In this document: positions 4,562-22,045 of the stretch, one piece after another | How the letters are laid out: the number at the start of each line of letters is the position of its first letter | Position numbering within the stretch: the first letter of the stretch is position 1 | NCBI RefSeq assembly: GCF_004786035.1 | Contig: NZ_CP035089.1 | Coordinates: 1-22,045 of the forward strand | Reading direction: 5' to 3' | DNA: 22,045 nucleotides | Source: Pseudomonas viciae | Lineage (GTDB): Bacteria > Pseudomonadota > Gammaproteobacteria > Pseudomonadales > Pseudomonadaceae | Position numbers and translations under genes: made by a program | Notes under the pieces: generated by a model | What the model was told of the DNA's origin: nothing | Seen by the model: the letters and a program-made list of their open reading frames with translations, nothing else | Databases searched by the model: none

Positions 4562-4649
4562 GGAACCCTTGGAACCCTTGGAACCCTTGGAACCCTTGGA
4601 ACCCTTGGAACCCTTGGAACCCTTGGAACCCTTGGAACCCTTGGAACCC
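4562..4649. repeat. Nine perfect tandem copies of GGAACCCTT before mobC
   Basis: Nine uninterrupted 9-bp units occupy 4562-4642, followed by a partial unit to 4649. The unit length is a multiple of three, so all forward frames stay open: one reads Glu-Pro-Leu repeats in frame with mobC, another Asn-Pro-Trp repeats. Each junction CCCTTGGAACC has partial dyad symmetry. It lies between the nick candidate and mobC, so it may be a relaxosome-protein binding array or simply a slippage-prone microsatellite. Confidence 0.9.
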
Positions 4650-4685
4650 GTTGATCGGCGCCGAGCGCCTAGTTGGAGTGGGCTA

Positions 4686-6658: not shown

Positions 6659-6764
6659 GAGCAAGACGGCTCCTGCAGCTACCTGCAGGGGCTATAGGCG
6701 CCCCAGCGCTGTGCGCCAACACAGCACTGGGACTTCCATCAAGCACCTACAACCGAGGTGACCA

Positions 6765-7317: not shown

Positions 7318-7337
7318 ACCGATGGCGCAAATGAAGA

Positions 7338-7360
7338 GGCGGCCCGATGGCCGCCTTTTT
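7338..7360 (+). terminator. Rho-independent terminator of the mob operon
   Basis: GGCGGCC (7338-7344), a four-base loop CGAT, GGCCGCC (7349-7355), then five T. It ends plus-strand transcription before the convergent exc-traY operon. Confidence 0.9.
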
Positions 7361-7392
7361 CATATGTGTGGTTGATGAGCTCGGAAGGAAGC

Positions 7393-7917: not shown

Positions 7918-7928
7918 GAAGTTTCTCC

Positions 7929-10106: not shown

Positions 10107-10660
10107 GGATGCGCTCCTTTCTTGCGTGACAGCTCCGGATCTAACACGGTCCACCACCAGCCGCGGATCTCCGAGATGAAGTCCTGCAGGCTGCCTCTCT
10201 CAGTTTGGGATAGACGTCGAGTGCGCAGCTGCCAGAGACGCAATTGAGCTGACAGGGCGACCATGAAGAACACCGGAGGGCTGGCTAGCAGGGTGGTCAT
10301 ACCCAACCAGGTGGCGTTGACCATGGCGTAGATTCCCAGCGTGATAAACGCGGTGCCTGCCGCCAGAGCTAGGCGTTTCTTGAACAAAAAAAGGTCATAG
10401 AGCGCTGGAATGCTTGGCGAACCAGGTTCGCGATTGTTCATCGCTTCCTCGAAAGTGCAATCCGTCCGGGATGACTCTTTAGACTCAGGTTTGCTGCTCT
10501 TACGAACCACTTGATACAACGCACGGATGTGTTCCAGGTTTTTCTTATGTTGTTCCTTCGAACTCCTTGTGTGTTCGATCGTCTTTTTGATTGCTGCGCC
10601 AGGCCAAATAAGTCGTAGGGCAATTTGACCGGCTTTCTTGCTTGTTTGTTTAGCATTCAT
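10103..10660 (-). CDS. traX: TraX-like conjugal transfer protein
   Basis: A 185-residue protein between a small membrane protein gene and traY. It has a basic N-terminus (NAKQTSKKAGQIALRLIWPG), a charged middle and two close membrane segments at about 108-125 (LAAGTAFITLGIYAMV) and 128-148 (LLASPPVFFMVALSAQLRL), ending in a tryptophan-rich stretch (EIRGWWWTVLDPELSRKK). In IncI plasmids traX directly precedes traY, and the homologues are small two-helix proteins of unknown mechanism; order and topology agree. The ribosome site is strong (AAGGAG, 7 bases), its start overlaps the upstream gene by 11 bases and its stop overlaps traY, so coupling is tight. Confidence 0.65.
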   Translation of the reverse strand: MNAKQTSKKAGQIALRLIWPGAAIKKTIEHTRSSKEQHKKNLEHIRALYQVVRKSSKPESKESSRTDCTFEEAMNNREPGSPSIPALYDLFLFKKRLALAAGTAFITLGIYAMVNATWLGMTTLLASPPVFFMVALSAQLRLWQLRTRRLSQTERGSLQDFISEIRGWWWTVLDPELSRKKGAHP

Positions 10661-10937
10661 TTTTTGGCTCCTTCTTGAACTCGAAATCGAGCAGCTTTAG
10701 CCACCAATAAGGCGTCCGGTAGAAGTCAAAAGCGTGGGCGTCAGGGTTGCGCGCTAACCACAATAAACCTGATGCCGAAACTAGCCAGAGCAGGCAGGTA
10801 ATGAAAATAGCGAGCCAAATAGCTGCCGAATAAAGCCATCCGCTAATTAGCCCAGTAATTGAGAAAATCAGCCAGAACTGGCTGATTCTTTTGTTGTGAA
10901 TAAGTTCGGGATTTGCCGTTTTGGTAGGCGCTCTCAT
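10650..10937 (-). CDS. Small membrane protein, first gene of the traX-traY operon
   Basis: A 95-residue protein with two membrane segments (about 20-40, FWLIFSITGLISGWLYSAAI, and about 43-62, IFITCLLWLVSASGLLWLA) and a short charged tail ending DFEFKKEPKNEC. It overlaps traX by 11 bases and has a modest ribosome site (TGGAA). I recognise no named family; tight coupling to traX-traY suggests a conjugation-linked role. The AT-rich region upstream (10938-11179) must hold the operon promoter. Confidence 0.6.
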   Translation of the reverse strand: MRAPTKTANPELIHNKRISQFWLIFSITGLISGWLYSAAIWLAIFITCLLWLVSASGLLWLARNPDAHAFDFYRTPYWWLKLLDFEFKKEPKNEC

Positions 10938-11030
10938 TTTGTATTCCAGATGTTATACGGAACAAATTTGAGGGCAGTCTAGTATCAAGATATGTTTTGT
11001 GAAAGTATATTATGCGGGAAATTTTAGTTG

Positions 11031-11055
11031 TGCGTAATTGCGTAATTACGCAACT
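11031..11055. promoter_or_regulatory. Palindrome and repeats upstream of the traX-traY operon
   Basis: A perfect 16-base palindrome, TTGCGTAATTACGCAA (11038-11053), is preceded by a direct copy of TGCGTAATT (11031-11039), so GCGTAATT half-sites occur three times at a spacing of 8. The site sits in an AT-rich intergenic region in front of the 10937-to-7393 operon and looks like an operator for a dimeric regulator. The exact promoter is unclear; TATAAC at about 10950 is one possible minus-strand -10. Confidence 0.6.
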
Positions 11056-11179
11056 AATCTGATGTATTTTGTATTATGTTATTTTGCAAAATTATAGTGG
11101 TTGTAACGTGTTGAACGGTAAGGATTATTTTATTGTTTGGGTTTTCTTGAGGTTTCGTATTGTTGGATTATATGGAGAA

Positions 11180-11737
11180 TCATATCTCGGCAGGTCGCAA
11201 AAAAAAACCTTCCTGCAGTTGCCCCAAATAGTATTCAAGGTTGCCTGAAACCTTATCCAAAACCTTCGGTAAGTAGGGGAGCAAATCTGGAAAATCGGAG
11301 CGGGCTGGGCCTCCATGATAGTGCCTACAGTGTGCAAGGATGGCTTCGCGATCCTCGGTAGTAAGCTGTTGCATCGGGTCACGGTCGTTGTAATCGTGCA
11401 AATTTGACAGGTGGATGAATGCGCACCCAAATTTGTACACGGAACACGTCCAGCCTTGGAGCTGTTGTGCAAGCTCAACCATCTCCCGATCTGTGACACG
11501 ACCACGGCCGTTGACCTGCTTCCATTGCTGCCCTTTCACTGATGCCTCAATCAAGGTCGTCCGTCTTGCCGGCTCCTGGCTAAGCAGGTAAATAACACGA
11601 ACCATAGAGTCCAGCTCTTGGCGAAGAATGGCGATCATCTGGCTCGGAATGTTTGCGCGGGCAAGGAGCTGCATGGCTCGTTTGTGGTCGCTTGAACGGC
11701 TGAGAACCTGTCTAGTGAAAACGGCAACTTCGTCCAT
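11180..11737 (-). CDS. Hypothetical protein paired with a GNAT enzyme
   Basis: A 185-residue soluble protein. ATG 11737 is chosen over a GTG 20 codons upstream because AGGAGG lies 8 bases before it. It is rich in predicted helix. The segment YKFGCAFIHLSNLHDYNDRD and the later RHYHGG cluster histidines and aromatics as in an active or metal site. I have a sense of related uncharacterised bacterial proteins with the same FIHLSNxHDY signature but know no function. It follows the GNAT gene by 70 bases on the same strand, so the two may work together as an accessory or defence-like pair. Termination is unclear; a run of T and A follows at 11190-11210. Confidence 0.6.
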   Translation of the reverse strand: MDEVAVFTRQVLSRSSDHKRAMQLLARANIPSQMIAILRQELDSMVRVIYLLSQEPARRTTLIEASVKGQQWKQVNGRGRVTDREMVELAQQLQGWTCSVYKFGCAFIHLSNLHDYNDRDPMQQLTTEDREAILAHCRHYHGGPARSDFPDLLPYLPKVLDKVSGNLEYYLGQLQEGFFLRPAEI

Positions 11738-11807
11738 CAGGGCTTCCTCCTTTTGCCTATACCGTTGCAGCACTTCCCGACGTATAGGAGCTAGCACCTA
11801 CGGTAAG

Positions 11808-12401
11808 TCAGATAACTAGCAGCTGTTTGATGTCGTCATCGTTCAACATGAAAACCGGCGACGAGCCTTCAATCCCAGGGCTTCCCATGATGGCGAGGTC
11901 AACGTACATATCCCTCGTAAGGGCAAAGCCTTGTTGAGCGGTTGGGGGAGTGAAGTCGCCTTTGAACTCCAAACCTGCACGCTCATAGAACTGAATCAAA
12001 TTGTGATTGCATAGCAGGCAAGTGCCTTGCGAATAGTCCAATACGCCATTTAACAACTGAGTGCCAATGCCATGCCCCCTATAGGGCTCGAACACGAAGA
12101 TTTTGTGGCAGTAACGTGAGATGGAGGGATCTGGGTGTACAAAGAATATGGCGTAACCGTATAGCCGACCGTTTTCATGACTCACTGCAACCTTGAGGTG
12201 ACCTGCGCGGTAGCACTCCTCAAGGATCCCAACCACGTGTCGAATGGCTTTCATTGTTTCGGCTTTTGAGAAGGCCATGAAATGCATGGCGAGCCCAGGT
12301 TGAGCCAACAAATCAGCCAAAATACCCTTGGCATCATTCTCAAAGATCGTCGGCAGAAAAGTATCAACGATGTCCTGTGAAGCGTCTTGCAGCTGAGTCA
12401 T
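11808..12401 (-). CDS. GNAT-family N-acetyltransferase
   Basis: A 197-residue enzyme expected to move an acetyl group from acetyl-CoA to an amine. The core motif A is clear: KIFVFEPYRGHGIGTQLLNG (about residues 118-137) holds the R-G-H-G-I-G pyrophosphate-binding loop, preceded by the strand YGYAIFFVHPDP and followed by LIQFYERAGLEFKG, the usual motif B arrangement. ATG 12401 is favoured (AAGGA 7 bases upstream) over an in-frame GTG eight codons earlier. The substrate cannot be read from the sequence: it could be a small molecule, an antibiotic, or a protein or tRNA as in TacT-type toxins. The partner at 11180-11737 is not an RHH antitoxin, so a TacAT pair is unlikely. Confidence 0.85.
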   Translation of the reverse strand: MTQLQDASQDIVDTFLPTIFENDAKGILADLLAQPGLAMHFMAFSKAETMKAIRHVVGILEECYRAGHLKVAVSHENGRLYGYAIFFVHPDPSISRYCHKIFVFEPYRGHGIGTQLLNGVLDYSQGTCLLCNHNLIQFYERAGLEFKGDFTPPTAQQGFALTRDMYVDLAIMGSPGIEGSSPVFMLNDDDIKQLLVI

Positions 12402-12517
12402 ACCGATTTCCTTGTCAGTTTTCACGGGTGCGAAATTCGCATTCAGGTGCCGTCAAAGCCCACACGCTGCGGGCTATAGGTTTTCCTGTGGGCCTACTGG
12501 CCCCAGGAATACTCCAA

Positions 12518-12688
12518 TCAGATACATACTCTTTGGGCTGCCACCTCGATCAGTGCTGGTGCAGTACACGGGTGGCTTACCGGTGCTTCGGGAACAGGCC
12601 AGTAGACCAGAATAATACCGGCCAGCACTTTGATCAGGACGCCATTGACGATACCCAGGCACCAGGAACGAAGGTCAAACTTTTGCAT
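12518..12688 (-). CDS. 56-residue single-pass membrane peptide
   Basis: A short frame from ATG 12688 to TGA 12518. Residues about 9-31 (WCLGIVNGVLIKVLAGIILV) form one membrane segment preceded by a basic start (QKFDLRS); a proline-rich linker and a small tail with two cysteines follow. A weak ribosome site (GTGAG) lies 8 bases upstream. Codon choice and the clean topology make it more likely real than the overlapping frames. No family is recognised; single-pass peptides of this size include toxins and membrane-stress effectors, but nothing here proves such a role. Confidence 0.45.
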   Translation of the reverse strand: MQKFDLRSWCLGIVNGVLIKVLAGIILVYWPVPEAPVSHPCTAPALIEVAAQRVCI

Positions 12689-12761
12689 CTGTCGTACTCA
12701 CGGTTGTTGAAGACGACAGTTACCATAACGACCGACTTGCTCCTTTCAAGCAACAACCAAA

Positions 12762-12818
12762 TTATTTTTCGGCTTGCCTCAGAGTGACCCTCTGTCCCCT
12801 AAGAACAGGACGATCCAT
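12762..12818 (-). pseudogene. Possible severed N-terminus of a GNAT acetyltransferase
   Basis: An 18-codon frame beginning DRPVLRGQRVTLRQAEK has the LxGxRVTLRxxE pattern with which many GNAT acetyltransferases begin, then hits TAA. No continuation is visible in other frames. It may be a deletion remnant, or chance. Confidence 0.22.
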
Positions 12819-12832
12819 GGTCTTATGCGGGC

Positions 12833-13015
12833 TCAACTCTTTGAGTTTCCCCTTTCGGATTCGGTCAGACCATCCGCTTGATCCACGATACATTCTCGAT
12901 ATTCAACAATTTTATCTATCTGTGTTTCCCTGCCCCAGGGCGTGTAGTACGCCATTTCTCTGATGCGCTCATGCACCTCATATGTTTTCCCGTCTTCACG
13001 AACCACAATTTTCAT
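12833..13015 (-). CDS. Small hypothetical protein (60 aa)
   Basis: The start is ATG 13015, with CGAGGTAA about 9 bases upstream; the longer open frame to 13228 runs through a terminator and is not coding. The protein begins KIVVREDGKTYEVHERIREM, a strand-loop-helix pattern, and is charged throughout. No family is recognised. It lies between a strong terminator (13113-13135) and two very small genes, so it is probably transcribed from its own promoter. Confidence 0.55.
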   Translation of the reverse strand: MKIVVREDGKTYEVHERIREMAYYTPWGRETQIDKIVEYRECIVDQADGLTESERGNSKS

Positions 13016-13112
13016 AGCGTTTACCTCGTCATTGGCTAAACCCCATTGTGGCCCCAAAAAAACACCCTTCCTGGACGGTGTTTGCATCCTTGGTGCGTCG
13101 CCCGGCAGGCGC

Positions 13113-13135
13113 AAAAAAGCCCGCAAGAGCGGGCT
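13113..13135 (-). terminator. Terminator of the RHH/EVE-like gene
   Basis: AGCCCGC (13118-13124), AAGA loop, GCGGGCT (13129-13135); on the minus strand it is followed by six T. It ends transcription coming from 13179-13919. Confidence 0.88.
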
Positions 13136-13178
13136 GTTTGTGGAGCTGTGAGCGTAAAGGCGGTTAGTCGCTGACTTT

Positions 13179-13919
13179 TTAAGGCTTCGCTTTCTTTGAC
13201 TCAATGAGGTCAAGCACCTTTTGCCCATCGGGCATGCCCGACATGGTCCTCAGGAACACCACATTACGATCCAGCGCTTTCTTGATGGCCGCAGCCGAGA
13301 TGGGTTGCTCTAGAATTTTGAACCCTTCCAAGACCTGGTAGTGGCACTCATCCTTTTCACCCTCGTGATCACGCATCTGAACCTCACCGGTACCTCGGCC
13401 ATACGCCACAATACCTGTGATGTTTTCGTATAAAAACACCACCTCGCCCTTCTTGATGCGGTTGATGTTCAGCTTCCAGGGCGCATAGAACGCCGCTGCT
13501 GCCTTGTTAGCCAGCATCCACTCATGATCATCATCGGTATGGGTCTTGTTGGTATTCAAAATATGAAAACCTACGGCTGGTTGCGGCTCGACCTCCTCAG
13601 CCAGAGCTAACTGAGCCAACTCGGCCTTTTCCACCTCGTCCAACCTATCTTGGGCAGCCTCTGCACCGTGCTCAAGCAGTTTGAGCATGACCTCATGCTT
13701 CGAAATGTCTAATTCAAGAGCCAGCCTCTCCACGAACTTATGCATCCACTCGGGCATTCTGACGGTCGACGCAATCGACTCATTTTTAGCTTTTTTAGAG
13801 TTCTCGATCATTGTGAGGATGTTAGTCAAAGGTGATTCTCCACGGTCTTCAATTTGAGAACCATATAGAGAACCATTATTCGGTGCAACAAATTCATCAT
13901 AATAAACTCGGAACTGCAT
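13179..13919 (-). CDS. RHH-like plus EVE/PUA-like domain protein
   Basis: A protein of up to 246 residues with two recognisable parts. Residues about 50-92 (STVRMPEWMHKFVERLALEL then DISKHEVMLKLLEHG) have the strand-helix-helix pattern of an RHH-type DNA-binding or dimer domain. Residues about 117-230 look like an EVE/PUA-like fold: HILNTNKTHTDDDHEWMLAN, KAAAAFYAPWKLNINRIKKG, VVFLYENITGIVAYGRGTGE. EVE domains read modified bases and often accompany restriction or modification functions, so a modified-DNA sensor or regulator is possible. The start is uncertain: ATG 13919 has no good ribosome site, and ATG 13811 (210 residues) is an alternative. It diverges from 13986 across a 13-bp inverted repeat. 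Confidence 0.65.
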   Translation of the reverse strand: MQFRVYYDEFVAPNNGSLYGSQIEDRGESPLTNILTMIENSKKAKNESIASTVRMPEWMHKFVERLALELDISKHEVMLKLLEHGAEAAQDRLDEVEKAELAQLALAEEVEPQPAVGFHILNTNKTHTDDDHEWMLANKAAAAFYAPWKLNINRIKKGEVVFLYENITGIVAYGRGTGEVQMRDHEGEKDECHYQVLEGFKILEQPISAAAIKKALDRNVVFLRTMSGMPDGQKVLDLIESKKAKP

Positions 13920-13934
13920 AGAGCTGGTCGAAAG

Positions 13935-13966
13935 AAACTAACGATAAAATAGGTTATCGTTAGTTT
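13935..13966. promoter_or_regulatory. 13-bp perfect inverted repeat between divergent genes
   Basis: AAACTAACGATAA (13935-13947), six bases, TTATCGTTAGTTT (13954-13966). It lies 16 bases before the RHH/EVE-like ORF start and 20 before the gene at 13986. It could be an operator for the RHH protein, a recombination core for the recombinase encoded just downstream, or a hairpin. It lacks a GC-rich stem, which argues against a terminator. Confidence 0.75.
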
Positions 13967-13985
13967 TTAGTGCAGGAGCAGCCCT

Positions 13986-14291
13986 ATGGCGACACTTACG
14001 GATTTTGACGAATGGCTTGATGGCGCGGTCCCCAGCGACATGGTGGAAGACGTGTACGCGCTTTACGAAGCGGTCGATGGTGAAACCGAGTTTGCGCAGT
14101 ACAAGGCTGTGCGCGCTGCCAACGGTCAGTTGCTCGTGTCCTATGGTGATGGCAGCGATTGGCTGCGACTGGCCACAAACGACGCGAAGGAGGGTTTCCT
14201 CCGCCGTATCGGGGGCCGCTATGTGGGCGAGGGCGGTATGAGCGTGGGGGCCTGGTACATCATGCATCAGGGGATGGCTTCCGATGACTGA
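13986..14291 (+). CDS. Hypothetical protein coupled to the tyrosine recombinase
   Basis: A 101-residue acidic protein with a good ribosome site (AGGAG) 8 bases upstream. It is rich in aromatic and acidic residues ([20 protein letters not shown]), with no recognised domain. Its end overlaps the recombinase start by 8 bases, so the two are translationally coupled; it may be an accessory or directionality factor, but that is inference. The paralogous module at 16689 has a GNAT-like protein in the same slot, so the partner is not conserved. Confidence 0.7.
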
Positions 14292-15261
14292 GCTGACGGA
14301 ACGGCAAACTGGGAGCCTGCAGGGCACCAGCGAGCGCCGTCTGACCGCCGCCGAGTTCCAGGACCTGGCCACAGTCCCGGCCGCCGTCGAATGGTTTGCC
14401 AATCTAGCCAACCCACGCACCCGCCGCGCCTACCAGGGCGATATCGAGGATTTTTGCAGGTTCGTCGGCCTGCACACGCCCGAGCAGTTTCGCCTGGTGA
14501 CCCGTGCCCATGTCCTCGCCTGGCGTAGCCAATTCGAGCAGCGCGGCCTGTCCGGGGCCACCCAGCGGCGCAAACTTGCCGCCCTGACCAGCCTCTTCAA
14601 TCACCTGCTGGACAGCAACGCGGTCGCCGGCGGCAACCCGGTGCACGGCGTCAAACGGCCGAAAATTGAAAGCAACGAGGGCAAGACCCCGGCCCTCGCC
14701 GATCACCAGGCCAAGGCCCTGCTCGAGGCTCCCGATCCAAGTACGCTGAAAGGCCTGCGCGATCGGGCGATTATCGCGGTCTTGCTCTACCACGGCCTGC
14801 GTCGCGAGGAGGCCGCTCGCCTGCAGGTTGATGACCTGCAGCAGCGTCGCGGCCTTCAACACCTGCGCATCCACGGCAAAGGCGGCAAGCTGCGTTACGT
14901 GCCACTGCACCCGGTCGCCGCCGAACGTCTGCATAGCTATCTTGAGGCTTCGGGACACCACCATGAACAGGACAAGGCACCCCTGTTTCGCCCGCTGCGT
15001 GGGCCGAAAACCGGCGCGGGGATTTCCGCCGAAGGCATCTATGCCCTGGTCGGCCAGTACGCCCAAGCGGCCGGGATCGCCGTCGTCGGTCTCGGTGTGC
15101 ATGGTCTGCGGGCCACGGCCGCAACCAACGCCCTGGAGCATGAAGCCGACATCGCCAAGGTCCAGGCCTGGCTTGGGCATGCCAATATCAGCACGACCAA
15201 GCTCTACGACCGACGTCACGCCCGGCCCGAGGATTCGCCAACCTTCAAGGTCCATTACTGA
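14284..15261 (+). CDS. Tyrosine recombinase (XerC/D-like, plasmid type)
   Basis: A 325-residue site-specific recombinase. The N-terminal core-binding (SAM-like) domain is at about 30-115 ([20 protein letters not shown], then [20 protein letters not shown]). The catalytic domain has R173 (YHGLRREEA), K202 ([11 protein letters not shown]), H273 and R276 (VHGLRATAA), H299 (WLGHANIS) and the nucleophile Y308 (TTKLYD): a full set. The size and short C-terminus resemble Xer and plasmid resolvases, so dimer resolution of the plasmid is a likely job; integration of a cassette is the alternative. It is GC-rich and coupled to 13986. A decayed relative lies at 17234-17611. Confidence 0.93.
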
Positions 15262-15349
15262 CCCGCGTCGAGGCGCAAAAATTGGGTCATTGCCATGGAC
15301 GAACCACACCGTGGAAACCACAAACGACAGAACGCCAAGAGGATGAGTA

Positions 15350-16363
15350 ATGACAAAAGGAACAAAGGCTGGGCAGTTTTCGCCGGTATCACTGGAGGCG
15401 TTGGAGCTCATCGCTAGAGATAAAAAAAACCCACGCTTGCTGGTGGCATACCTTGGGCTAGCCAGGCATACGACCATGAAGGATTTAGATGGCCGTGGCC
15501 CCAACATGCTAACTGGCGCCGGAGCTGAGAAGGTGAGAGTGCTAACGGGCTGTGGTACGCCAATGGCTACAGGCCTGGTAAAGGCTTTGGTTGGTATGGG
15601 GCTGATCAAGAAAGCAGCGGCAGGGCTGCCACCTGCTCAGGCTCGGTGGGCAATGCAACACCGAGGGGAAGTAAACATTCCTCACGCACTGATAGATGGA
15701 GGGATAGGAAATGCGGACGGTATCGGTCGCCTATTGAAAGAGGGGGCGACTGATGAAGTGGTTGTCTGCGCCATCATGCTGCTGATCAACTGTTACGCAG
15801 AGCACGACTTAGAGAAATTCGGCGGAATCAATCACCAGCAAATGTGGCGCAATTGGGAACACTTGACCAGTACAGAGGGTGAAGGGTTCCGGGTGACTGC
15901 AGAGCCAAAGACCGAATCCGCTAACGGAAAATATCTGAGCAAGATAATCAGCAGTATCGGTGGCAAGGTAAACGAGAAAGGCAATAGCGATGTTTTTTGG
16001 GAAGCCTTTAAGTTGCTGAAAAGTACAGGCCTGTTTTATGAGGTTGTGACAGCCATCAGCATCGAGGGTAAGCGGCTGCCAATCAGGGTTAATGACTTTC
16101 ACGCCGTTGGGTCTGACCCATCGTTACTAAATGACGCGGCTGGCGTCGGAGTTGGATATTACGAACACAAGGATAATGATCGGTCGGAGCCTGAGGGCTG
16201 CTGGTTCTATCTGCCCTCAAAACCAGAGAAAGTGATCGGTATTTGGCGGCTCAGATTCAGATGTGCGACACCTGAAACGGCAAAAGGAATACACCTCGAC
16301 TGGTCCATAGTCGATAGGGCTATCACCGACCTTGGTGTAAAAGGCGTCCTCTATCTTGAATGA
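15350..16363 (+). CDS. Hypothetical plasmid protein with winged-helix-like N-terminus
   Basis: A 337-residue protein with a good ribosome site (AGAGG, 7 bases). Residues about 28-100 look like a winged helix: LLVAYLGLARHTTMKDLDGR, then VRVLTGCGTPMATGLVKALV, GMGLIKKA, then a wing-like ARWAMQHRGEVNIP. The rest is unfamiliar, with aromatic-rich C-terminal stretches. It is followed at once by two repeat arrays (16402-16525), an arrangement also seen for plasmid initiators and their iterons. Since the replicase at 1-1367 is broken, an initiator or copy-control role is worth testing, but I cannot identify a Rep family. It lies between the intact and the decayed recombinase, so it may instead be cargo of that region. 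Confidence 0.7.
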   Translation: MTKGTKAGQFSPVSLEALELIARDKKNPRLLVAYLGLARHTTMKDLDGRGPNMLTGAGAEKVRVLTGCGTPMATGLVKALVGMGLIKKAAAGLPPAQARWAMQHRGEVNIPHALIDGGIGNADGIGRLLKEGATDEVVVCAIMLLINCYAEHDLEKFGGINHQQMWRNWEHLTSTEGEGFRVTAEPKTESANGKYLSKIISSIGGKVNEKGNSDVFWEAFKLLKSTGLFYEVVTAISIEGKRLPIRVNDFHAVGSDPSLLNDAAGVGVGYYEHKDNDRSEPEGCWFYLPSKPEKVIGIWRLRFRCATPETAKGIHLDWSIVDRAITDLGVKGVLYLE

Positions 16364-16401
16364 GTGACATATAAGTAGATTGAATATACAAGTAGAGCTA
16401 C

Positions 16402-16459
16402 AGATATAGGTCAGGAAGACAGATATAGGTAAGGAAGACTAGAAATAAGTCAGAGTGAC
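16402..16459. repeat. Three tandem 19-bp repeats (AGATATAGGTMAGGAAGAC)
   Basis: Units at 16402-16420 and 16421-16439 differ at one base; a third, at 16441-16459, matches at about 15 of 19. Two AAGTAGA copies precede them. The array starts about 40 bases after the stop of the 337-residue protein. Periods of 19-22 bp are typical of iterons and of cooperative operator arrays. Confidence 0.75.
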
Positions 16460-16525
16460 GTGCGCACAGCCTCAAAAATCAGTTGCACACTCAAATCAGT
16501 GCACACAACCTCAAAGTCAAGTGCG
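16460..16525. repeat. Second repeat family with GTGCRCACARCCTCAAA units
   Basis: One unit spans 16460-16481 and another 16499-16520, agreeing at most positions; a shorter version, GTTGCACACTCAAATCA (16482-16498), lies between. The array follows directly on the 19-bp repeats. The rest of the gap to 16688 shows nothing clear. It may be an origin, a recombination site or a control region. Confidence 0.6.
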
Positions 16526-16688
16526 AGTAATCAGTACGGTGGTAGGGCATACCTTGCATGCATCCGGAAGACCAGTGATGGTCTCAGATTTAGCCACCAG
16601 AAAAGCGTGCTGACTGTGTAATCCACTCGACGCGGCTCAACGGGCATGATCCGTATGCTTAACACCAGTTTTCATGGAGAAGGACCCG

Positions 16689-17237
16689 ATGGAAGTGTTT
16701 GAGCCGATCCGCGATTTTTACCAACGGCGCCAGGCCAGCCATCTGAATGTGCGTGCGTCGACGGTGCAACTGCTGACGGAGCGCGCCGCCGCCTACCGTG
16801 GCCATTTCGTTTTTCCAGGCATCGACACCGTCGCCGGCATTGAGGTCGATGGCCTGCGCGTCGGCTATGTCGACTACGGCATCAACCCGCTGGGCGACCG
16901 GGTCTACATCAATAGAATCGATATCGAGGATAAGCATCAACGTAGGGGCGTGGGCCTATCTGTGATGTGGTTGCTATGGCGCATGCATCAGGTGCCCTTG
17001 GTGCCTATTCATGAGGTCTGGCGCTCAAAGGGATTTTGGTCCAAGGCCCGCCAGCGGTTGGCAGCAGCCGGCGCACTGATCGAACCTGAACTTCATACGG
17101 GTGATCTGGAGCAAGCCCAACAGCGCTGGCAGCATCTCGTGCCCGAGCTGGCACACGAACGGCAGATCCGCGAGATGATGGCCTCGCCGGAGTGGCCGGA
17201 GATCGAGGCGGGATTCAACGCGAGGCAGGCGTTATGA
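16689..17237 (+). CDS. GNAT-like N-acetyltransferase in the second recombinase module
   Basis: A 182-residue protein starting at ATG 16689, chosen because GGAGAAGG lies 5-12 bases upstream (an ATG 15 bases earlier overlaps that site). The GNAT core is visible: strand DGLRVGYVDYGINPLGDRVY, then INRIDIEDKHQRRGVGLSVM with the Q-R-R-G-V-G acetyl-CoA loop, then a helix and YxxxGFW-like packing (VWRSKGFWSKARQRLAAAGA). The substrate is unknown. Its stop overlaps the ATG of the decayed recombinase (ATGA at 17234-17237), as in the intact module at 13986-15261. Confidence 0.75.
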   Translation: MEVFEPIRDFYQRRQASHLNVRASTVQLLTERAAAYRGHFVFPGIDTVAGIEVDGLRVGYVDYGINPLGDRVYINRIDIEDKHQRRGVGLSVMWLLWRMHQVPLVPIHEVWRSKGFWSKARQRLAAAGALIEPELHTGDLEQAQQRWQHLVPELAHERQIREMMASPEWPEIEAGFNARQAL

Positions 17238-17611
17238 GCCTGCTCGTCACCCCGGCGAGCGTCGGCTGAGTTTCAGCCCCCCGTGGTACCAGCGGCGGTG
17301 GAATGGTTCGCTAATATCGACAACCCGCGCCCCGGCGCGCCTATCAGAATGACCTGGGAGATTTCTGCAGCTTTGTGGGGCTCACGGCATTTATGCCTTT
17401 GGGCCAGCACGCCAAGGTGGCCGGCATCGAGGTCATCGGGCTGGGTGTACACGGGCTTCGTGCTACTGCAGCGACTAATGCCCTGGAGCACGAAGCCGAT
17501 ATCAGTAAGGTCCAGGCCTGGTTGGGCCACGCCAATATAAGCACGACCAAGCTCTACGATCAGCGCCATACGCGGCCGGAAGACTCGCCGACTTTCAAGG
17601 TCAGCTATTGA
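17234..17611 (+). pseudogene. Decayed tyrosine recombinase with large internal deletion
   Basis: The ATG at 17234 overlaps the stop of the GNAT-like gene. Coding matter then shifts frame: an early in-frame TGA (about 17267), [15 protein letters not shown] (from about 17283), [16 protein letters not shown] in another frame after about 17335, then a jump at about 17383 to GIYA and, after one more shift, [20 protein letters not shown] to TKLYDQRH and the stop. Against the intact relative, residues about 64-250 are missing, so the catalytic R173 and K202 are lost while H273, R276, H299 and Y308 remain. The 3' part still aligns with 15060-15261 as a direct repeat. It cannot be active. Confidence 0.9.
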
Positions 17612-17660
17612 TCGGTAGCGACGTCACCTCAAAAAACCAAAAAGTCATAAGGGACAAGCA

Positions 17661-18044
17661 ATGCAAACACTGGATGAACTGAGACTTCGGCCACCGGTAA
17701 CAGCAGACGAAATGGTTCGCATAGAGGGCAGCCGGTCTACTTATAGACTGATTGAAGAGGTGATCAATTCGCTGGCTGAGGCGGAACTGAAAAAGGATCA
17801 AGGCTTCCTTGAGAAACTCGGCCGGCAATTAGGCCTCGTTAGGTCGCAGCCTAACTGGGAAGGTTGGAATGGCTGGGGAGCGGGACGTCAACTCAAATGC
17901 GCTGCTTTGCAACACGCTGGATGGACTTATGATGAAAGCCATCATCCTTACGGGGAGGCTGCATGTGCTTATGAAAAAGTACGACAAGTATTGCTTTCGC
18001 CGGAGTGTGGCTCCGCTGAGGACTTATTGAAGCGGCTCCAATAG
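17661..18044 (+). CDS. Hypothetical protein (127 aa)
   Basis: A soluble protein of 127 residues with an AGGGA ribosome site. The N-terminal half is helical (MVRIEGSRSTYRLIEEVINS); the C-terminal half contains WEGWNGWGAGRQLKCAALQH and YGEAACAYEKVRQVL, a small tryptophan-rich region of unknown fold. It follows the decayed recombinase by 50 bases and may once have been in its operon. No family or function is recognised. Confidence 0.6.
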   Translation: MQTLDELRLRPPVTADEMVRIEGSRSTYRLIEEVINSLAEAELKKDQGFLEKLGRQLGLVRSQPNWEGWNGWGAGRQLKCAALQHAGWTYDESHHPYGEAACAYEKVRQVLLSPECGSAEDLLKRLQ

Positions 18045-18130
18045 GCAGTAGGCGCTGTGCATGAGGCATGGTCGAGACTTGGCCCTGCGCCGGCGTAAGC
18101 TGGGGCAGCGGTCAATCCAGACAGGGAGTC

Positions 18131-18148
18131 GGAGACAGCTATGTCCTC
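18131..18148. promoter_or_regulatory. Isolated copy of the GGAGAC-N6-GTCTCC dyad
   Basis: GGAGAC (18131-18136), six bases, GTCCTC (18143-18148), matching the units of the array at 19577-19662, especially unit 2, which also ends GTCCTC. It lies in the 297-base gene-free gap 18045-18341. A partial GGGAGACTTGTCT follows at 18307-18319. Confidence 0.5.
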
Positions 18149-18341
18149 AGGGGACGACAGGTGGTTGCGATTTGATTAGCAGTTGCTTAACATTGACCAT
18201 GACTACGCAGACAGCAGAAAATTTGTCGGCGGAGCTGCGAAGGCCCAGGCAAGCCGGGGTCATATGAAGGGAAATTGTAGGCGTTTGGGTTGTTCTGCTT
18301 CAGTGCGGGAGACTTGTCTGCAAGGCCGTCCTTCCTCGTAG

Positions 18342-18857
18342 TCAACTAATGTTTCGAATTTTGGCCTCGGTCGCGTGATACGCGGTTACCGGGGCCAAGT
18401 ATTTTTCAGTCCCCTCCTGACAGACCTTCACTACTGCCAGTGCGTAGTAGCTTCCTACGCCAACTTTCACCTTACGGCCAGTATTGAAGATAATCCCCTG
18501 CGCGTTTTTAGGCTTGTTGAGCCCTATCTGACTGTAGGGCGAATAAGCTTTCGCCAAAATTTCCAGAGCTTCCTCAGGGGTGCAGTTGTCCTTGGTTTCC
18601 CGTGACTCTAGGGGATGAGCAATTGCCTGTAGATCAATCAGAATTCCACGGCGATTAGGTACCGTCCAATTTTGCTGCTTACAAATTTTTCGGATCCTGT
18701 CGAACTGTTTTGGCGTCATCAGATAGGTGAAAACAGGAGCATGTTGCACCTGGTCAAGCGATACGCCAGCGTCCCGCATGCTCACCACGATGGCCATCAG
18801 TTCCCGAAAAGCATCGGCTAGGGCCGCGTCCCCCAGTTGGTCGTTTGTGTTTGTCAT
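18342..18857 (-). CDS. Hypothetical protein (171 aa), downstream of the HTH gene
   Basis: The start is ATG 18857 (AGAAG about 10 bases upstream); a longer TTG start at 18899 is less likely. The N-terminal half is helical (ALADAFRELMAIVVSMRDAG, then HAPVFTYLMTPKQFDRIRKI), and the C-terminal part is strand-rich (GRKVKVGVGSYYALAVVKVC). No named family is recognised. It lies 75 bases after the end of the HTH gene on the same strand and may share its promoter and its control by the GGAGAC dyads, which would place it in the same plasmid-maintenance unit. Confidence 0.6.
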   Translation of the reverse strand: MTNTNDQLGDAALADAFRELMAIVVSMRDAGVSLDQVQHAPVFTYLMTPKQFDRIRKICKQQNWTVPNRRGILIDLQAIAHPLESRETKDNCTPEEALEILAKAYSPYSQIGLNKPKNAQGIIFNTGRKVKVGVGSYYALAVVKVCQEGTEKYLAPVTAYHATEAKIRNIS

Positions 18858-18931
18858 GTTCGTCGTTCTTCTAAATTCCGGTTTGCTCGACGAACCCAAT
18901 CGCCATGCTTCCTGGCTATCCCATACCCTAG

Positions 18932-19414
18932 TTAGCTTTTAACCAGCTCCAATTTTCCGGCCTGCTTGCTTGCTGGACGGCCACTGGACTCAGCTTTCTT
19001 TTTCTCGCGCTCAGCCGAAATTTCTTTAGCCAGTGGTGTAGCGGCCTTAATGAGGCCTGCGAATGAGTATCTGTTGGTGAGGTTGCCGCCCTTAGACGAT
19101 GTACGGGCAACCCGTTGGATGTAGCCTTTTTTCTCCAGCCCGGCGATCTGCCGTTGTACTGACCTGGGAGTGATACCGATGGCAGTGGCTAACGATTCTT
19201 TACTGGGATATGGGTCGTTACCTGCTTTCCACCAGTAGCCGGCCAGGTGCAAGATAATGAGGATATCCAGCTGCTTAAGACCCAATGCCTGCGAACACTC
19301 AAAAAGGACGTTGGGAATAGCTGTCCAGCCGGCAGCCGTAAGGTGCTTACCCCACTTTTTTTCGATTGCCTGGTCGGCTTCTTCTGATGGTTTTGATTGC
19401 GGTGCCTTGGCCAT
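18932..19414 (-). CDS. HTH_36-like DNA-binding protein, possible initiator or repressor
   Basis: A 160-residue protein with a winged helix-turn-helix of the HTH_36 kind, the fold of phage O-like and some plasmid replication proteins. The segment GWTAIPNVLFECSQALGL leads into LDILIILHLAGYWW, then YPSKESLATAIGITPRSVQR (about 69-88) and the recognition-wing part QIAGLEKKGYIQRVARTSSK. The tail is lysine-rich (EREKKKAESSGRP). ATG 19414 has AGGGG 9 bases upstream. One degenerate GGAGAC dyad lies 72 bases before the start and the four-unit array lies 160-250 bases before it, so the protein probably binds them, either to start replication or to control itself. The DNA target is inference. Confidence 0.7.
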   Translation of the reverse strand: MAKAPQSKPSEEADQAIEKKWGKHLTAAGWTAIPNVLFECSQALGLKQLDILIILHLAGYWWKAGNDPYPSKESLATAIGITPRSVQRQIAGLEKKGYIQRVARTSSKGGNLTNRYSFAGLIKAATPLAKEISAEREKKKAESSGRPASKQAGKLELVKS

Positions 19415-19485
19415 TTTTTCTACCCCTGTATTTAGCTCTGGGGGGATTATGGCCGCACAAAATGGGGCTTACAATGCCAGGGGGG

Positions 19486-19503
19486 GAGACGGCTGTGTCA
19501 GCC
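19486..19503. promoter_or_regulatory. Degenerate GGAGAC dyad in the leader of the HTH gene
   Basis: GGAGAC (19486-19491), six bases, GTCAGC (19498-19503), inside a larger G-run/C-run hairpin (19481-19508). Its place between the array and the HTH start suggests autoregulation, or an attenuating hairpin. Confidence 0.45.
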
Positions 19504-19576
19504 CCCCTTATTGGTATAGTGTGTATCGGTTAAATGGGTGTGAATAGAGTTATGTAATTTAAGTTGTTATGTTTTG

Positions 19577-19662
19577 GGAGACGCTGCTGTCTCTATCTGG
19601 GTGACGGTAGCGTCCTCCCCAGGGAGACACCAAGATCTCTATAGGGAGACCATAGCGTCTCC
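19577..19662. repeat. Iteron-like array: four GGAGAC-N6-GTCTCC dyads at 22-23 bp period
   Basis: Unit 1: GGAGAC gctgct GTCTCT (19577-19594). Unit 2: GGTGAC ggtagc GTCCTC (19600-19617). Unit 3: GGAGAC accaag ATCTCT (19623-19640). Unit 4: GGAGAC catagc GTCTCC (19645-19662). Starts are spaced 23, 23 and 22 bases, about two helical turns, so bound dimers would lie on one face. Half-sites are kept while the six middle bases vary, as expected for a dimer binding two half-sites. An A-tract block follows. Confidence 0.85.
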
Positions 19663-19668
19663 TGCAAC

Positions 19669-19700
19669 CACCAAAAAAAAACCAAAAAAACCAAAAAAAT
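19669..19700. repeat. Phased A-tracts (CCA7-9) next to the dyad array
   Basis: Three runs of seven to nine A separated by CC. Such tracts bend DNA or ease strand opening and often sit beside iterons in plasmid origins. The remaining bases to 19852 show no gene; the minus-strand frame 19701-20027 looks like a shadow. Confidence 0.6.
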
Positions 19701-19852
19701 TCAATTCGGGGACTCTGGTCTTACGGCTGAGCGAACTTTGCCGCATTTCAGGTTCAGCCTCAAGAACCTAAGGGAAAGAGGCGGTGGGGCGCAGCGAACA
19801 AAAAGCGAGGCTACAGTAGGCCAGTTTCCAGAGTTCAGGTTTCCGTTGGCCA

Positions 19853-19884
19853 GCAAAAAGCCCACCGAAGTGGGCTTTTTGCTG
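19853..19884. terminator. Bidirectional terminator
   Basis: AGCAAAAAGCCCAC (19853-19866), CGAA tetraloop, GTGGGCTTTTTGCT (19871-19884): 14 perfect pairs with T/A tracts on both sides. It ends the minus-strand gene at 19945-20214. Confidence 0.9.
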
Positions 19885-19944
19885 AAGCACACGAAATGCC
19901 ATAACTGGTGACGGTGACGCGGATCACCCAGCCCAGCCGGCTGG

Positions 19945-20214
19945 TCAGTTGGGCCGCCGTGGCGCGATTTGCGAAACTCGCGATGGGCTGACGTTGTAGC
20001 GCTCAGCGACAACTTTGGTTGGGACACCGCTATTGACCTCGGCGCGAATCGCGTTGTTACGCATATCCTTCACTTGAGCCTCTAGGTTGGCAATGTCTTG
20101 GCCTTGGCTCTGCAGGATCTTGCTGTGTTGGTCGATGGTTTTCTGTTGCTGTTCCTGTGCTTTGGCCAAGCTGGCCATGGCGTCATGCAGGTGATTACGA
20201 GGCGGTCGAGGCAT
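19945..20214 (-). CDS. Small coiled-coil plus HTH DNA-binding protein (KfrA-like in layout)
   Basis: An 89-residue protein from ATG 20214 (AAGGA 8 bases upstream; a TTG start 21 bases earlier is unlikely). Residues about 12-55 form a coiled coil (MASLAKAQEQQQKTIDQHSK, SQGQDIANLEAQVKDM); the C-terminus, EVNSGVPTKVVAERYNVSPS followed by RVSQIAPRR, reads as a helix-turn-helix. Coiled coil plus HTH recalls plasmid KfrA-type nucleoid or partition proteins, though KfrA has the HTH first and is longer. A regulatory role is likely; the palindromes in its upstream region (20248-20279) are candidate targets. Confidence 0.7.
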   Translation of the reverse strand: MPRPPRNHLHDAMASLAKAQEQQQKTIDQHSKILQSQGQDIANLEAQVKDMRNNAIRAEVNSGVPTKVVAERYNVSPSRVSQIAPRRPN

Positions 20215-20247
20215 TTTTTGTTCCTTATGACCCAATGGTTAAATTTA

Positions 20248-20287
20248 CTAAGCTTAATACTTAGCAAGGCAAAGCTTTGTTGCTTGC
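20248..20287. promoter_or_regulatory. Palindromes upstream of the coiled-coil/HTH gene
   Basis: CTAAG-N7-CTTAG (20248-20264) is followed by the perfect palindrome CAAAGCTTTG (20270-20279), flanked by AGCAAG and CTTGCT. They sit 34-73 bases before the minus-strand gene and could be its operators. No certain promoter is seen. Confidence 0.45.
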
Positions 20288-20370
20288 TCTGACCAATAGA
20301 ATAAGGGTTGTTAGGAAATCGTAGCAAGATTTATTTGTTGTGAATAATTGAGTTTGGCAGAAGCCAGGCC

Positions 20371-20396
20371 AAAAAAAGCCCGCTTTAGGCGGGCTT
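20371..20396 (-). terminator. Minus-strand terminator
   Basis: AAGCCCGC (20376-20383), short loop, GCGGGCTT (20389-20396); seven T follow on the minus strand. No minus-strand gene is obvious upstream of it, which raises the chance of an untranslated transcript from the 20397-20463 interval. Confidence 0.8.
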
Positions 20397-20463
20397 GTAC
20401 AGGATAGGATCTGCAGATTCGAGGCTGCTCATCACAGAGTCGTGCTGCTTTCTGAACGCGCAC

Positions 20464-20496
20464 AAAAAAGCCTCTTGACTGTCAAGAGGCTTTTTT
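20464..20496. terminator. Perfect 16-bp hairpin, bidirectional terminator with promoter -35 in its tip
   Basis: AAAAAAGCCTCTTGAC (20464-20479), one base, GTCAAGAGGCTTTTTT (20481-20496). Both strands end in six T, so it can stop transcription both ways. The tip contains TTGACT, the -35 of the promoter that follows. Confidence 0.9.
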
Positions 20497-20535
20497 GATA
20501 TACTTGAATTCTGTGCACTCGAAATGCACAGAATT
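20475..20535 (+). promoter_or_regulatory. Sigma-70-type promoter followed by an 11-bp-arm operator palindrome
   Basis: TTGACT (20475-20480), 18 bases, TATACT (20499-20504). The start point would be about 20511, within the inverted repeat AATTCTGTGCA-N7-TGCACAGAATT (20507-20535). A repressor bound there would block initiation. The nearest plus-strand genes are the toxin-antitoxin pair, about 200 bases downstream. Confidence 0.65.
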
Positions 20536-20685
20536 GGGGATTCTATGGTTTTTCTGTCAACGAGGCAAACTATAGGAAAAGATGACGTGAGTGTCAACTG
20601 ATGAATGATGCAATTGATGAGCGGTATTTTTGCTGATTTTCCAGGCGGCTCGCGCACATTTCTGCAACCCAGAGAGGATTGACAT

Positions 20686-20742
20686 ATGTTCAAAAATAAA
20701 CCAATATGGAGTCATAAACATGCAAGCGAAGCACCAACGTAA
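20686..20742 (+). CDS. Possible 18-codon leader ORF overlapping the toxin start
   Basis: The ATG at 20686 has AGAGAGG 8 bases upstream, a better ribosome site than many real genes here. The frame (FKNKPIWSHKHASEAPT) ends at TAA 20740-20742, 20 bases inside the toxin gene in another frame. Ribosomes on this leader would cover the toxin start site, so it could tune toxin translation. It may equally be chance. Confidence 0.3.
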   Translation: MFKNKPIWSHKHASEAPT

Positions 20743-21046
20743 TTACAAACCGCCATTCAGTAAATTCGTGAAAAAGGCGGCCAAGCCCCTGGCATTGGCT
20801 ATCGAGGATGAGGTTGAAATCATCTGTGAAACGCCAGAAATAGGGGTACAGAAGGTCGGCGATCTAGCCGGGATCTGGGTCCATAAATTCAGGTTCAACA
20901 AGCAAGAGTATTTGCTGGCTTATCGGCCACCGACACCTGAGGAAATACTGCAAGGGGTCGGCGTAGAGCTGCTAGGAATCGACTTCTACCAGGTAGGTCC
21001 GCATGAAAATTTCTATACGGACCTTAAGAAGTACTTAAAAAGTTGA
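20720..21046 (+). CDS. RelE/ParE-superfamily toxin
   Basis: A 108-residue protein from ATG 20720 (GGAG about 10 bases upstream); a longer frame to 20630 has no ribosome site. The order of elements fits RelE-type mRNA interferases: a basic start (KHQRNYKPPFSKFVKKAAKP), a long helix (LALAIEDEVEIICETPEIG), then the strand set LAGIWVHKFRFNKQEYLLAY and VELLGIDFYQVGPHENFY, ending YTDLKKYLKS. It is followed after 11 bases by a DNA-binding protein. Toxin-first order is usual for HigBA and some RelE pairs. Stalled-ribosome mRNA cleavage is the family role; gyrase inhibition (ParE) is less likely for this length and C-terminus. Confidence 0.82.
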   Translation: MQAKHQRNYKPPFSKFVKKAAKPLALAIEDEVEIICETPEIGVQKVGDLAGIWVHKFRFNKQEYLLAYRPPTPEEILQGVGVELLGIDFYQVGPHENFYTDLKKYLKS

Positions 21047-21057
21047 GGTAACCACCA

Positions 21058-21384
21058 ATGCGTGCCGCAATGACAGCTGAAGAGCTTTTTCAGGATCTGA
21101 GGAAGATGCCAGCCGCGGAACGGCAAAAATTCTTTGTCATTTTGTCTGCGAAAGCCTTTTCTGAGGAGAAAGACTCTACTCACGAAGAGGTTTTCGGTCA
21201 TCTGACCAATGATGAGTTTACGAGCTCCGAAGCTGCAGAATACCTAGAGGTTTCGACATCGACATTTCGACGCTATATCAAGAAGGAGCAGCTGGTTCCG
21301 AGCTCGTCTGTAGGCCGTAATCTGATGTTCGATGTACCTACATTGAAAGCATTCAAAAGAGCTCTGAAAACAGCCAAAGGCTGA
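21058..21384 (+). CDS. HTH antitoxin/regulator of the RelE-type toxin
   Basis: A 108-residue protein starting at ATG 21058 (GAGGT about 10 bases upstream), 11 bases after the toxin gene. The N-terminal half is helical and acidic (AEELFQDLRKMPAAERQKFF), suited to wrapping a basic toxin. The C-terminal half, FTSSEAAEYLEVSTSTFRRY, IKKEQLVPSSSVGRN, is an excisionase/MerR-type winged HTH for operator binding. It probably neutralises the toxin and represses the operon together with it. A pure regulator without antitoxin activity cannot be excluded. Confidence 0.78.
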   Translation: MRAAMTAEELFQDLRKMPAAERQKFFVILSAKAFSEEKDSTHEEVFGHLTNDEFTSSEAAEYLEVSTSTFRRYIKKEQLVPSSSVGRNLMFDVPTLKAFKRALKTAKG

Positions 21385-21678
21385 TGCTGTCGCATTGAGG
21401 CTGCTTCAGGGCATTCTTTTCTTGCTGATCTGATGAAGTCGCCGACGCCGTGTTTTGCCTGCCCTGCCCTGCCCTGCCCTGTGATGTGTAGGGCCATCTA
21501 CTAACTCCTCAGCGCAAACCTCTATGGCCTCAACCTGACAGGCCGAATGCTTGGCGTACGCCCCCCCCCCGTTTTATCTACCCTCGCCCCGAAGGTTTAT
21601 CAAATTTAAGACCCTTCAACCATCGATAGGCTAAGACTATGGTGAAGACTCGTATATCACCGACATTCCAATTAATGT
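21385..21678. repeat. Gap with GCCCT pentamers and a C10 run
   Basis: Four perfect GCCCT repeats (21461-21480), preceded by a partial copy, and ten C (21561-21570). No gene is seen. Both tracts are slippage-prone and are places where assembly length may be wrong. Confidence 0.6.
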
Positions 21679-21726
21679 TTGACGTCCCATTTGTCGCTGT
21701 ATAGGCTTTGTTTTACTGGGTAAAAC
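21679..21726 (+). promoter_or_regulatory. Promoter and operator of the RHH gene
   Basis: A weak promoter, TTGACG (21679-21684) with TATAGG (21700-21705), spacer 15. The palindrome GTTTTAC-TGG-GTAAAAC (21710-21726) lies over the expected start point and 12 bases before the RHH gene, as expected for autorepression. Confidence 0.55.
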
Positions 21727-21738
21727 CGGATAAGACAC

Positions 21739-21936
21739 ATGACCTATAGCGAAAATCTGAAAATCATCAGTTTCAAGCTGCCAGCAGACAAAAAACTGGC
21801 TCTTGAGGCGCTGCTGCGTAAGCGGGGCACAAACACCTCAGTTTTTCTGCGGCAGGCGGTAATTGAGTTTTTGGAGCGCGAAGACGAAGGCAAGGAACAG
21901 CTGAAGCTGCCCCTTGGAGAGAAAATGAGATCGTAG
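21739..21936 (+). CDS. Ribbon-helix-helix (CopG-like) regulator
   Basis: A 65-residue protein; GGATAAG lies 6 bases upstream of the ATG. The strand LKIISFKLPADKKLALEALL leads into the turn KRGTNTSVFLRQAVIEFLER, the standard RHH_1 pattern: an alternating strand with Ser/Phe/Lys, helix A, then the conserved G-T-N and helix B. CopG-like proteins bind DNA as dimers of dimers and control plasmid copy number, or act as antitoxins or transfer regulators. No toxin follows: a strong terminator comes immediately after, so this is a single-gene unit that probably represses itself at 21710-21726. Confidence 0.85.
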   Translation: MTYSENLKIISFKLPADKKLALEALLRKRGTNTSVFLRQAVIEFLEREDEGKEQLKLPLGEKMRS

Positions 21937-21939
21937 AAA

Positions 21940-21973
21940 CCAAAAAGCCCCGCTTGCAGGCGGGGCTTTTTGG
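21940..21973. terminator. Strong bidirectional terminator after the RHH gene
   Basis: CCAAAAAGCCCCGC (21940-21953), loop TTGCAG, GCGGGGCTTTTTGG (21960-21973): 14 perfect pairs, with T tracts within the stem on both strands. The last 70 bases of the window show no gene. Confidence 0.92.
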
Positions 21974-22045
21974 AAAATTCGTGAAGGGCCAGATCTTGGC
22001 AGAGCGGAGCCCTTCAACCACTTGGTGAGCAGATTATGGCTTTCA

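Follow-up and report, generated by a model that had tools for sequence, protein, structure and literature searches.

A regular array of palindromic sites upstream of an HTH_36/DnaD-like gene as a candidate replication origin and operator on a Pseudomonas viciae plasmid

Analysis of a 22,045-bp stretch of Pseudomonas viciae DNA (the window, which spans contig C2 from end to end, one of two contigs in a 6.70-Mb genome) revealed four evenly spaced 18-bp dyads and a fifth dyad next to a predicted promoter, all upstream of a gene encoding a small HTH_36/DnaD_N-like protein. The explanation that we consider probable is that the array is a Rep-binding replication origin and that the fifth dyad is the autoregulatory operator of the same protein. 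Observed in the sequences are the sites themselves, their periodicity, their conserved tie to the gene, the likewise conserved spacing between the fifth dyad and the −35 element, and the nearly independent variation of the two arms of the site; from these we infer binding, dimerisation, DNA opening, initiation and autorepression.

In the proposed mechanism, the HTH_36/DnaD-N winged-helix protein made from the adjacent gene would bind each dyad as a dimer, with one subunit per half-site, the half-site centres being 12 bp, or about one helical turn, apart. Dimerisation is suggested by knowledge of the family together with the palindromic form of the site. The four dyads, at 22–23 bp (approximately two turns), would then face the same side of the helix. 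The resulting Rep complex would open neighbouring DNA, probably at the A/T tract next to dyad 1 in the case of this plasmid, and recruit the host replication machinery. The fifth dyad, located before the −35 element, would act as an operator through which the protein limits its own expression and couples copy number to protein level.

Palindromic sites, promoter and A/T-rich flank

The initial annotation, made from the sequence alone, described four dyads of the form GGAGAC-N6-GTCTCC starting at 19577, 19600, 19623 and 19645, with steps of 23, 23 and 22 bp, and this geometry was confirmed. Numbered from the gene-distal end, dyad 1 (19645..19662; 17.3 bits) is perfect, dyad 2 (19623..19640; 14.9 bits) has two mismatches, dyad 3 (19600..19617; 16.2 bits) has three and dyad 4 (19577..19594; 18.0 bits) has one, counted over the 12 half-site positions, so that the description of the half-sites as conserved is generous for dyad 3. 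The array does contain four dyads, as had been claimed, and the fifth (19485..19502; 16.6 bits), the presumed autoregulatory operator, which lies 10 bp before the −35 element of the rep promoter, had been overlooked. The steps provide at least three repeats at about 20–23 bp, as in an iteron-type array, in which the dyads would serve as initiator sites, and the five dyads, kept in some of the relatives, provide the repeated sites upstream of the gene that are characteristic of HTH_36 Reps.

Allowing up to two mismatches, five matches were found in the window (18131, 19485, 19577, 19623 and 19645), compared to a mean of 0.71 in shuffled windows, and five were reached in none of 100 shuffles; the 400-bp region preceding the HTH_36 gene contains five sites with at most three mismatches, compared to a shuffle mean of 0.10. 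Across the whole genome, 13 places matched with at most one mismatch, compared to five for a reversed control pattern; two of the 13 are on the plasmid contig, and the other 11 are isolated and widely separated on the chromosome. The bit scores given above come from a palindromic motif derived from the upstream DNA of relatives, with the window and its near-identical counterpart L016 held out but other Pseudomonas relatives still in the training set. This motif placed the five window sites at ranks 1 to 5 across the 22-kb plasmid, the next best site scoring 12.7 bits.

A predicted σ70 promoter for the HTH_36 gene, TTGTAA-17-CATAAT (19446..19474, minus strand), matches the consensus at 9 of 12 positions. 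Shuffles of the region also yield one promoter-like site on average, and the promoter call therefore rests on conserved position: a TTG, the likely start of the −35 element, follows the promoter-proximal dyad after 9–10 nt in 18 of 22 loci, with distances of 6 nt in L010 and 17–20 nt in L022, L024 and L026, and for a randomly chosen point in the same regions the chance that the first TTG lies 6–12 nt beyond it is 0.10.

The A-runs that had been reported next to the array are present at 19673..19699 (starts at 19673, 19684 and 19693; T-runs in the orientation of the gene) and form a candidate opening region beside dyad 1, where the A/T fraction is 0.73 over 45 bp, compared to 0.42 further out. 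An A/T-rich flank exceeding its own background by at least 0.15 was observed in only 8 of 19 array loci; an A/T opening region common to the family was looked for and not found. Between the array and the operator lies a weak DnaA-box-like site (19539..19547, minus strand, one mismatch) that is not conserved in the family, boxes with at most one mismatch having been found in 5 of 22 loci.

Conservation of the site layout among relatives

Homologous loci whose proteins share 28–68% identity with that of the window (its identical twin L016 aside), to which further plasmid loci were added, yielded a motif of approximately G-G-A-G-[A/G]-C-N6-G-[T/C]-C-T-C-C. The relatives scored with this motif were also its training loci, and the counts that follow are thus in-sample, with shuffles and gene bodies serving as controls. 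Of the 45 loci, which include the window and its twin, 19 have one or more pairs of dyads 21–25 bp apart upstream of the gene, 15 have two or more such steps and 12 have three, whereas the controls gave no such pair either in 20 shuffle rounds or in the 400 bp from each gene start. The three-step loci are the window, L016, L005, L020 and L021 in Pseudomonas; L011 (Methylocaldum), L050 (Caulobacter), and L038 and L052 (Bradyrhizobium); and the MAGs L035, L036 and L039. Four dyads and a promoter-proximal dyad accompany the gene in both Gamma- and Alphaproteobacteria, and partial layouts include L024, L026 and L044 (Betaproteobacteria) and L022 (Dyella). Absence of the array from close relatives that keep the HTH gene had been named as an observation that would speak against the origin or operator reading; instead, it is present in L016, L005, L020 and L021.

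No dyad pair at 21–25 bp was found in the other 26 of the 45 loci. In four of these the sequence ends early (L023, L030, L032 and L033), ten are distant, at about 42% identity or less (L009, L012, L013, L040–L043 and L053–L055), and 12 have about 43–56% identity (L008, L010, L025, L028, L029, L031, L045–L049 and L051). Among the last 12, single sites number one to three in nine loci and zero in L008, L031 and L047. L008 (Vibrio vulnificus p93U204), the best case of a plasmid on which a homologue is the sole initiator candidate, has just two direct repeats of 22 bp. In some relatives the promoter-proximal dyad is present while no array can be recognised. Judged from these loci, the layout is widespread, yet not universal even in fairly close relatives.

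A tally of steps over 41 loci, near-twins included, gave 22 bp 20 times, 23 bp 11 times and 24 bp 15 times, and 19 other steps measure 87–97 bp, most of them separating the array from the promoter-proximal dyad. The 41 loci of this first scan excluded L017 (contained in L016), L018 and L019 (from the same record as L005) and L030–L033; L030, L032 and L033 end 87–129 bp upstream of the gene and L031 has a different upstream sequence, and these four were restored for the count of 45. The record shared by L005, L018 and L019, NZ_CP102430.1, is a plasmid of P. oryzihabitans (psychrotolerans) with two copies of the HTH_36 locus that are 99.98% identical and approximately 49 kb apart. Viral contigs gave 22 matches to the pattern but no relatives.

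Comparison of the two arms over 102 sites revealed that they vary close to independently, as measured by observed and expected numbers of strict complementary pairs. In raw counts, pairs 3, 5 and 8 showed a slight excess (49, 47 and 41 observed; 44.8, 42.1 and 36.2 expected, respectively), the innermost pair showed a deficit (18 observed, 29.6 expected), and the remaining pairs were closer to expectation. L016 and L005 were left out of this covariation test and kept in the spacing tally. Because the arms vary nearly independently, a DNA site that is read half by half is favoured over an RNA hairpin.

The candidate initiator, the second replicon and alternative functions

The gene adjacent to the operator (18932..19414, minus strand) encodes 160 aa and is presumed to be the replication initiator (Rep), based on Pfam, PHROG and PDB profile matches. 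In Pfam, the protein matches HTH_36 (E = 2.1e-14; 53.5 bits against a gathering cut-off of 25) and DnaD_N (1.3e-8), with MarR, Crp-like and LexA matches below their cut-offs and no match to Rep_3; NCBIfam contained no family for it. PHROG families named replication initiation protein or O-like also matched (best 5.2e-9), and a profile of 66 relatives matched in the PDB 2vn2, a ‘chromosome replication initiation protein’, best (8.8e-8), followed by DnaD (2e-6 and 1.2e-5) and, more weakly, by transcription regulators. The winged-helix N-terminal domain is like that of DnaD and phage O-like initiators, but the protein is much shorter, has only the N-terminal DnaD domain in Pfam, is plasmid-borne in Proteobacteria and has its own site array. 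Among 144 related genomes searched, only its own and one of P. yamanorum contain it, and relatives of the gene were found on 326 plasmid records (match at E 1e-5), where, among the matches listed, they are mostly annotated as helix-turn-helix or hypothetical proteins.

In Rep_3-type iteron plasmids, such as RK2, pPS10, P1 and F, initiator sites lie about two turns apart, with an A/T-rich flank and an extra site at the rep promoter for autoregulation. The array resembles these plasmids in site spacing and promoter site and, in the window, in a candidate A/T-rich flank, but it differs in that the protein has no Rep_3 match and in that each repeat is a palindrome with a variable centre rather than a directional iteron.

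Precedents are provided by small plasmids whose HTH_36 proteins have been classified as Reps by Maj et al. 2013 (PMC3832669). Paracoccus pAES1 (pKL1-like), the pAES7, pMARC3 and pMOS2 group and Escherichia coli pKL1 all have a small HTH_36 Rep and, upstream of rep, an origin with repeated or inverted sites. According to that study, replication of the cloned pAES1 and pAES7 REP regions was confined to Alphaproteobacteria and did not occur in the Pseudomonas and E. coli strains tested there; the pAES1 Rep is 46% identical to the pKL1 Rep; and the pKL1 origin lies upstream of rep and contains several Rep-binding sites (PMC3832669). The layouts described there differ from the four 18-bp dyads and operator of the window, since pAES7, pMARC3 and pMOS2 have two iteron-like repeats and pAES1 has inverted repeats and three 15-bp direct repeats (PMC3832669), pKL1 and pAES1 being set beside the window by published description rather than by sequence.

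The link of the 160-aa protein to pKL1 and pAES1 rests on that description and on an E. coli protein, L055, that is 30% identical to it (E = 3.6e-19) and may be related to the pKL1 Rep. The pAES7 subclass, judged via pYEE7, is hardly similar to the 160-aa protein (BLASTP E = 0.023), so that the proven function of pAES7 transfers only loosely; pYEE7 shares one subfamily with a 13,005-bp P. aestuarii record and a 6,410-bp P. marcusii record, which have the sizes of pAES7 and pMOS2. The P. yeei plasmids pYEE7 and pYEE8 were considered as relatives of proven function and rejected, given the E value of pYEE7 and those of the two HTH proteins of pYEE8 (0.28 and no match).

Titles and opening abstracts on HTH_36, pKL1, DnaD, iteron plasmids and GGAGAC, a search that covered few of the subscription papers, contained no such array. 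The kind of system is known, HTH_36 Reps having been described already (PMC3832669), and the site layout and its breadth look undescribed.

Small plasmids provide a further indication that the protein may be an initiator. On the 5.7-kb V. vulnificus plasmid p93U204 (L008), annotation, ORFs of at least 80 aa and Rfam point to no initiator candidate other than a homologue with 51% identity; the plasmid also carries HicAB, a RelE/ParE-HigA pair, two PAGEV RNAs and two other ORFs of at least 80 aa, and no RNAI on it reached the Rfam threshold. A 12.7-kb Spongiibacter plasmid encodes a 49%-identical homologue, with no other initiator family among the 10 of its 14 annotated proteins that were scanned and no RNAI; one protein (8211-9005) gave a sub-threshold Replic_Relax match. 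L009, L013 and L060, small plasmids whose homologues are more distant, were rejected as cases in which the HTH_36 protein is the only replicon, and the protein need not be the initiator there, because ColE1-type RNAI is present on them.

The window itself also carries the gene of a second, unrelated replication protein, RepA (Replicase, PF03090, with PriCT_1; about 1-1370, plus strand), which we take to be ColE2/pPT23A-like. The relation between the two systems was examined using a P. yamanorum contig, L016 (19,591 bp), that aligns with the window in four main blocks at 96.9–99.6% identity over positions 13935–22045 and 1–6855, with a gap of approximately 50 bp within the alignment; positions 6856–13934 (about 7 kb) are not common to the two. 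The alignment crosses the end and start of the window, and the ends of L016 meet inside window sequence, as would be expected if both plasmids are circular and complete. They encode the same HTH_36 protein, and a single base separates their arrays. Mismatches to L016 reach 52 per 500 bp over window positions of about 14000–16500, compared to one or two per 500 bp in the rep region, as if the former segment had been replaced by recombination.

The repA gene is split over frames in the window, which may reflect decay or sequencing error, and forms a single open frame of 452 aa in L016; on the evidence of the two contigs, the plasmid lineage carries two replication systems. The initial annotation had reasoned that the array could be the working origin since RepA is broken, and had noted that another intact replicon might explain replication. 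The frame split was borne out, but the conclusion drawn from it is weakened by L016, which keeps both systems open; with RepA open in this related P. yamanorum plasmid, another intact replicon may account for replication.

The presence of RepA bears on an unlikely alternative, in which the five dyads have no origin function and serve solely as operators through which the HTH_36 protein, as a transcription regulator, would repress its own gene and possibly a further transcript, with RepA replicating the plasmid. Consistent with such a function are the resemblance of the domain to transcription regulators (MarR, Crp-like and LexA, below cut-offs), the single dyad beside the promoter, the open repA of L016, the RNAI alongside the three distant homologues and the relatives that have a promoter-proximal dyad without a recognisable array. 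However, four of the five sites form a regular row 75–160 bp upstream of the promoter-proximal dyad, which is unusual for simple repression, and this array layout is kept in different genetic surroundings. Moreover, homologues are the only initiator candidates seen on p93U204 and, among the proteins scanned, on the Spongiibacter plasmid, and the protein resembles DnaD and phage O. The initial annotation had left the choice between an iteron origin and an operator array, and comparison supports both an iteron-like array and an operator belonging to the HTH_36 gene, given that the layout goes with this gene.

Centromeres typically hold arrays of short repeats, and the plasmid carries a ParA-like gene (2084-2722) with a 91-aa partner ORF (1809-2084), raising the possibility that the array is the centromere of this system, bound by the small protein beside ParA. 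We consider this very improbable, since the array is about 4.2 kb from the ParA pair by the shorter way round the circle, it accompanies the HTH_36 gene in relatives, and the incomplete PLSDB tables list no ParA gene in the 1.5-kb flanks of the gene in L046, L051 and L052. Least probable is that the dyads form hairpins along a leader or antisense transcript that controls rep: each dyad is compatible with a hairpin that has a 6-nt loop, but the arms of the 102 sites pair near independence with a deficit at the innermost pair, no Rfam family was found at the array with E values up to 1, and the array lies upstream of the sole predicted promoter.

If the array and operator function as proposed, a fixed, recognisable site layout beside part of the relatives would make it possible to tell from sequence which of the genes encode initiators, and it could serve as a marker for replicon typing and as a defined operator/origin pair for experimental work.

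The plasmid also encodes a relaxase with a NikA-like partner, a DotA/TraY protein, the ParA-like ATPase and a ParE-like toxin. A PtaRNA1 antisense RNA (Rfam RF01811, 48.6 bits), also present in L016, lies at 6696-6771 on the minus strand, just beyond the relaxase gene. A XerC/D-like recombinase gene occupies 14284-15261, and 2 kb past it, at 17283-17611, two frames resemble, by eye, its start and end, as if this were an internally deleted second copy of the recombinase. Beside the recombinase gene, a 337-aa ORF (15350-16363, plus strand) had no Pfam, NCBIfam or PHROG match.

A tRNA-like RNA after rep in relatives

In 22 of 42 sources, rep is followed on its own strand, mostly at a distance of no more than about 40 nt, by a tRNA-like RNA of 107–128 nt (25 matches, E < 1e-6), with acceptor, D and T arms as in tRNA and an anticodon arm extended by approximately 30–50 nt. 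These sources are L010 (3389-3502), L011 (14629-14741), L022–L024, L027–L039, L044, L049, L050 and L052, and do not include L025 or L026; L035, L037 and L044 have tandem pairs, and ARAGORN called a tRNA in L049 only. The model was built from 12 loci, so that ten are independent of it, though L030–L033 score alike and L038 resembles L052. In an alignment of 14 sequences, several of which are close relatives, 10 of 23 predicted pairs showed pair-keeping changes on both sides. Among the papers listed, no title concerned a rep-linked tRNA-like RNA.

With E values up to 1, the model matched nothing in the window or in the other Pseudomonas sources, where a 171-aa ORF occupies the place of the RNA. 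This ORF (18342..18857, minus strand, in the window) lies directly downstream of rep, was found among the loci compared only in Pseudomonas members, and is kept in place in the Pseudomonas relatives with 58–76% identity between species; it had no Pfam, NCBIfam or PHROG match. We tentatively suggest, as a possibility that we rate below even, that the array, the operator and the DnaD-like Rep define an undescribed replicon type across Alpha-, Beta- and Gammaproteobacteria. Many of its members other than those of Pseudomonas would use the tRNA-like RNA in replication or copy control, and the Pseudomonas clade of the window would have the 171-aa protein instead.

With only the RNA model as query, one search matched 3 of 398 genomes and a second matched 30 of 385; of 31 places in the latter search, 26 are 77 nt long and were taken to be ordinary tRNAs. 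Six places across both searches exceed 100 nt, three of them directly after a Rep homologue (E = 6e-67, 1e-40 and 7e-13, each locus searched alone). The long tRNA-like matches that are not beside a Rep homologue are in L061, L064 and L081, and the match in L081 follows a gene whose translation contains the letters DGQHR, a known motif.
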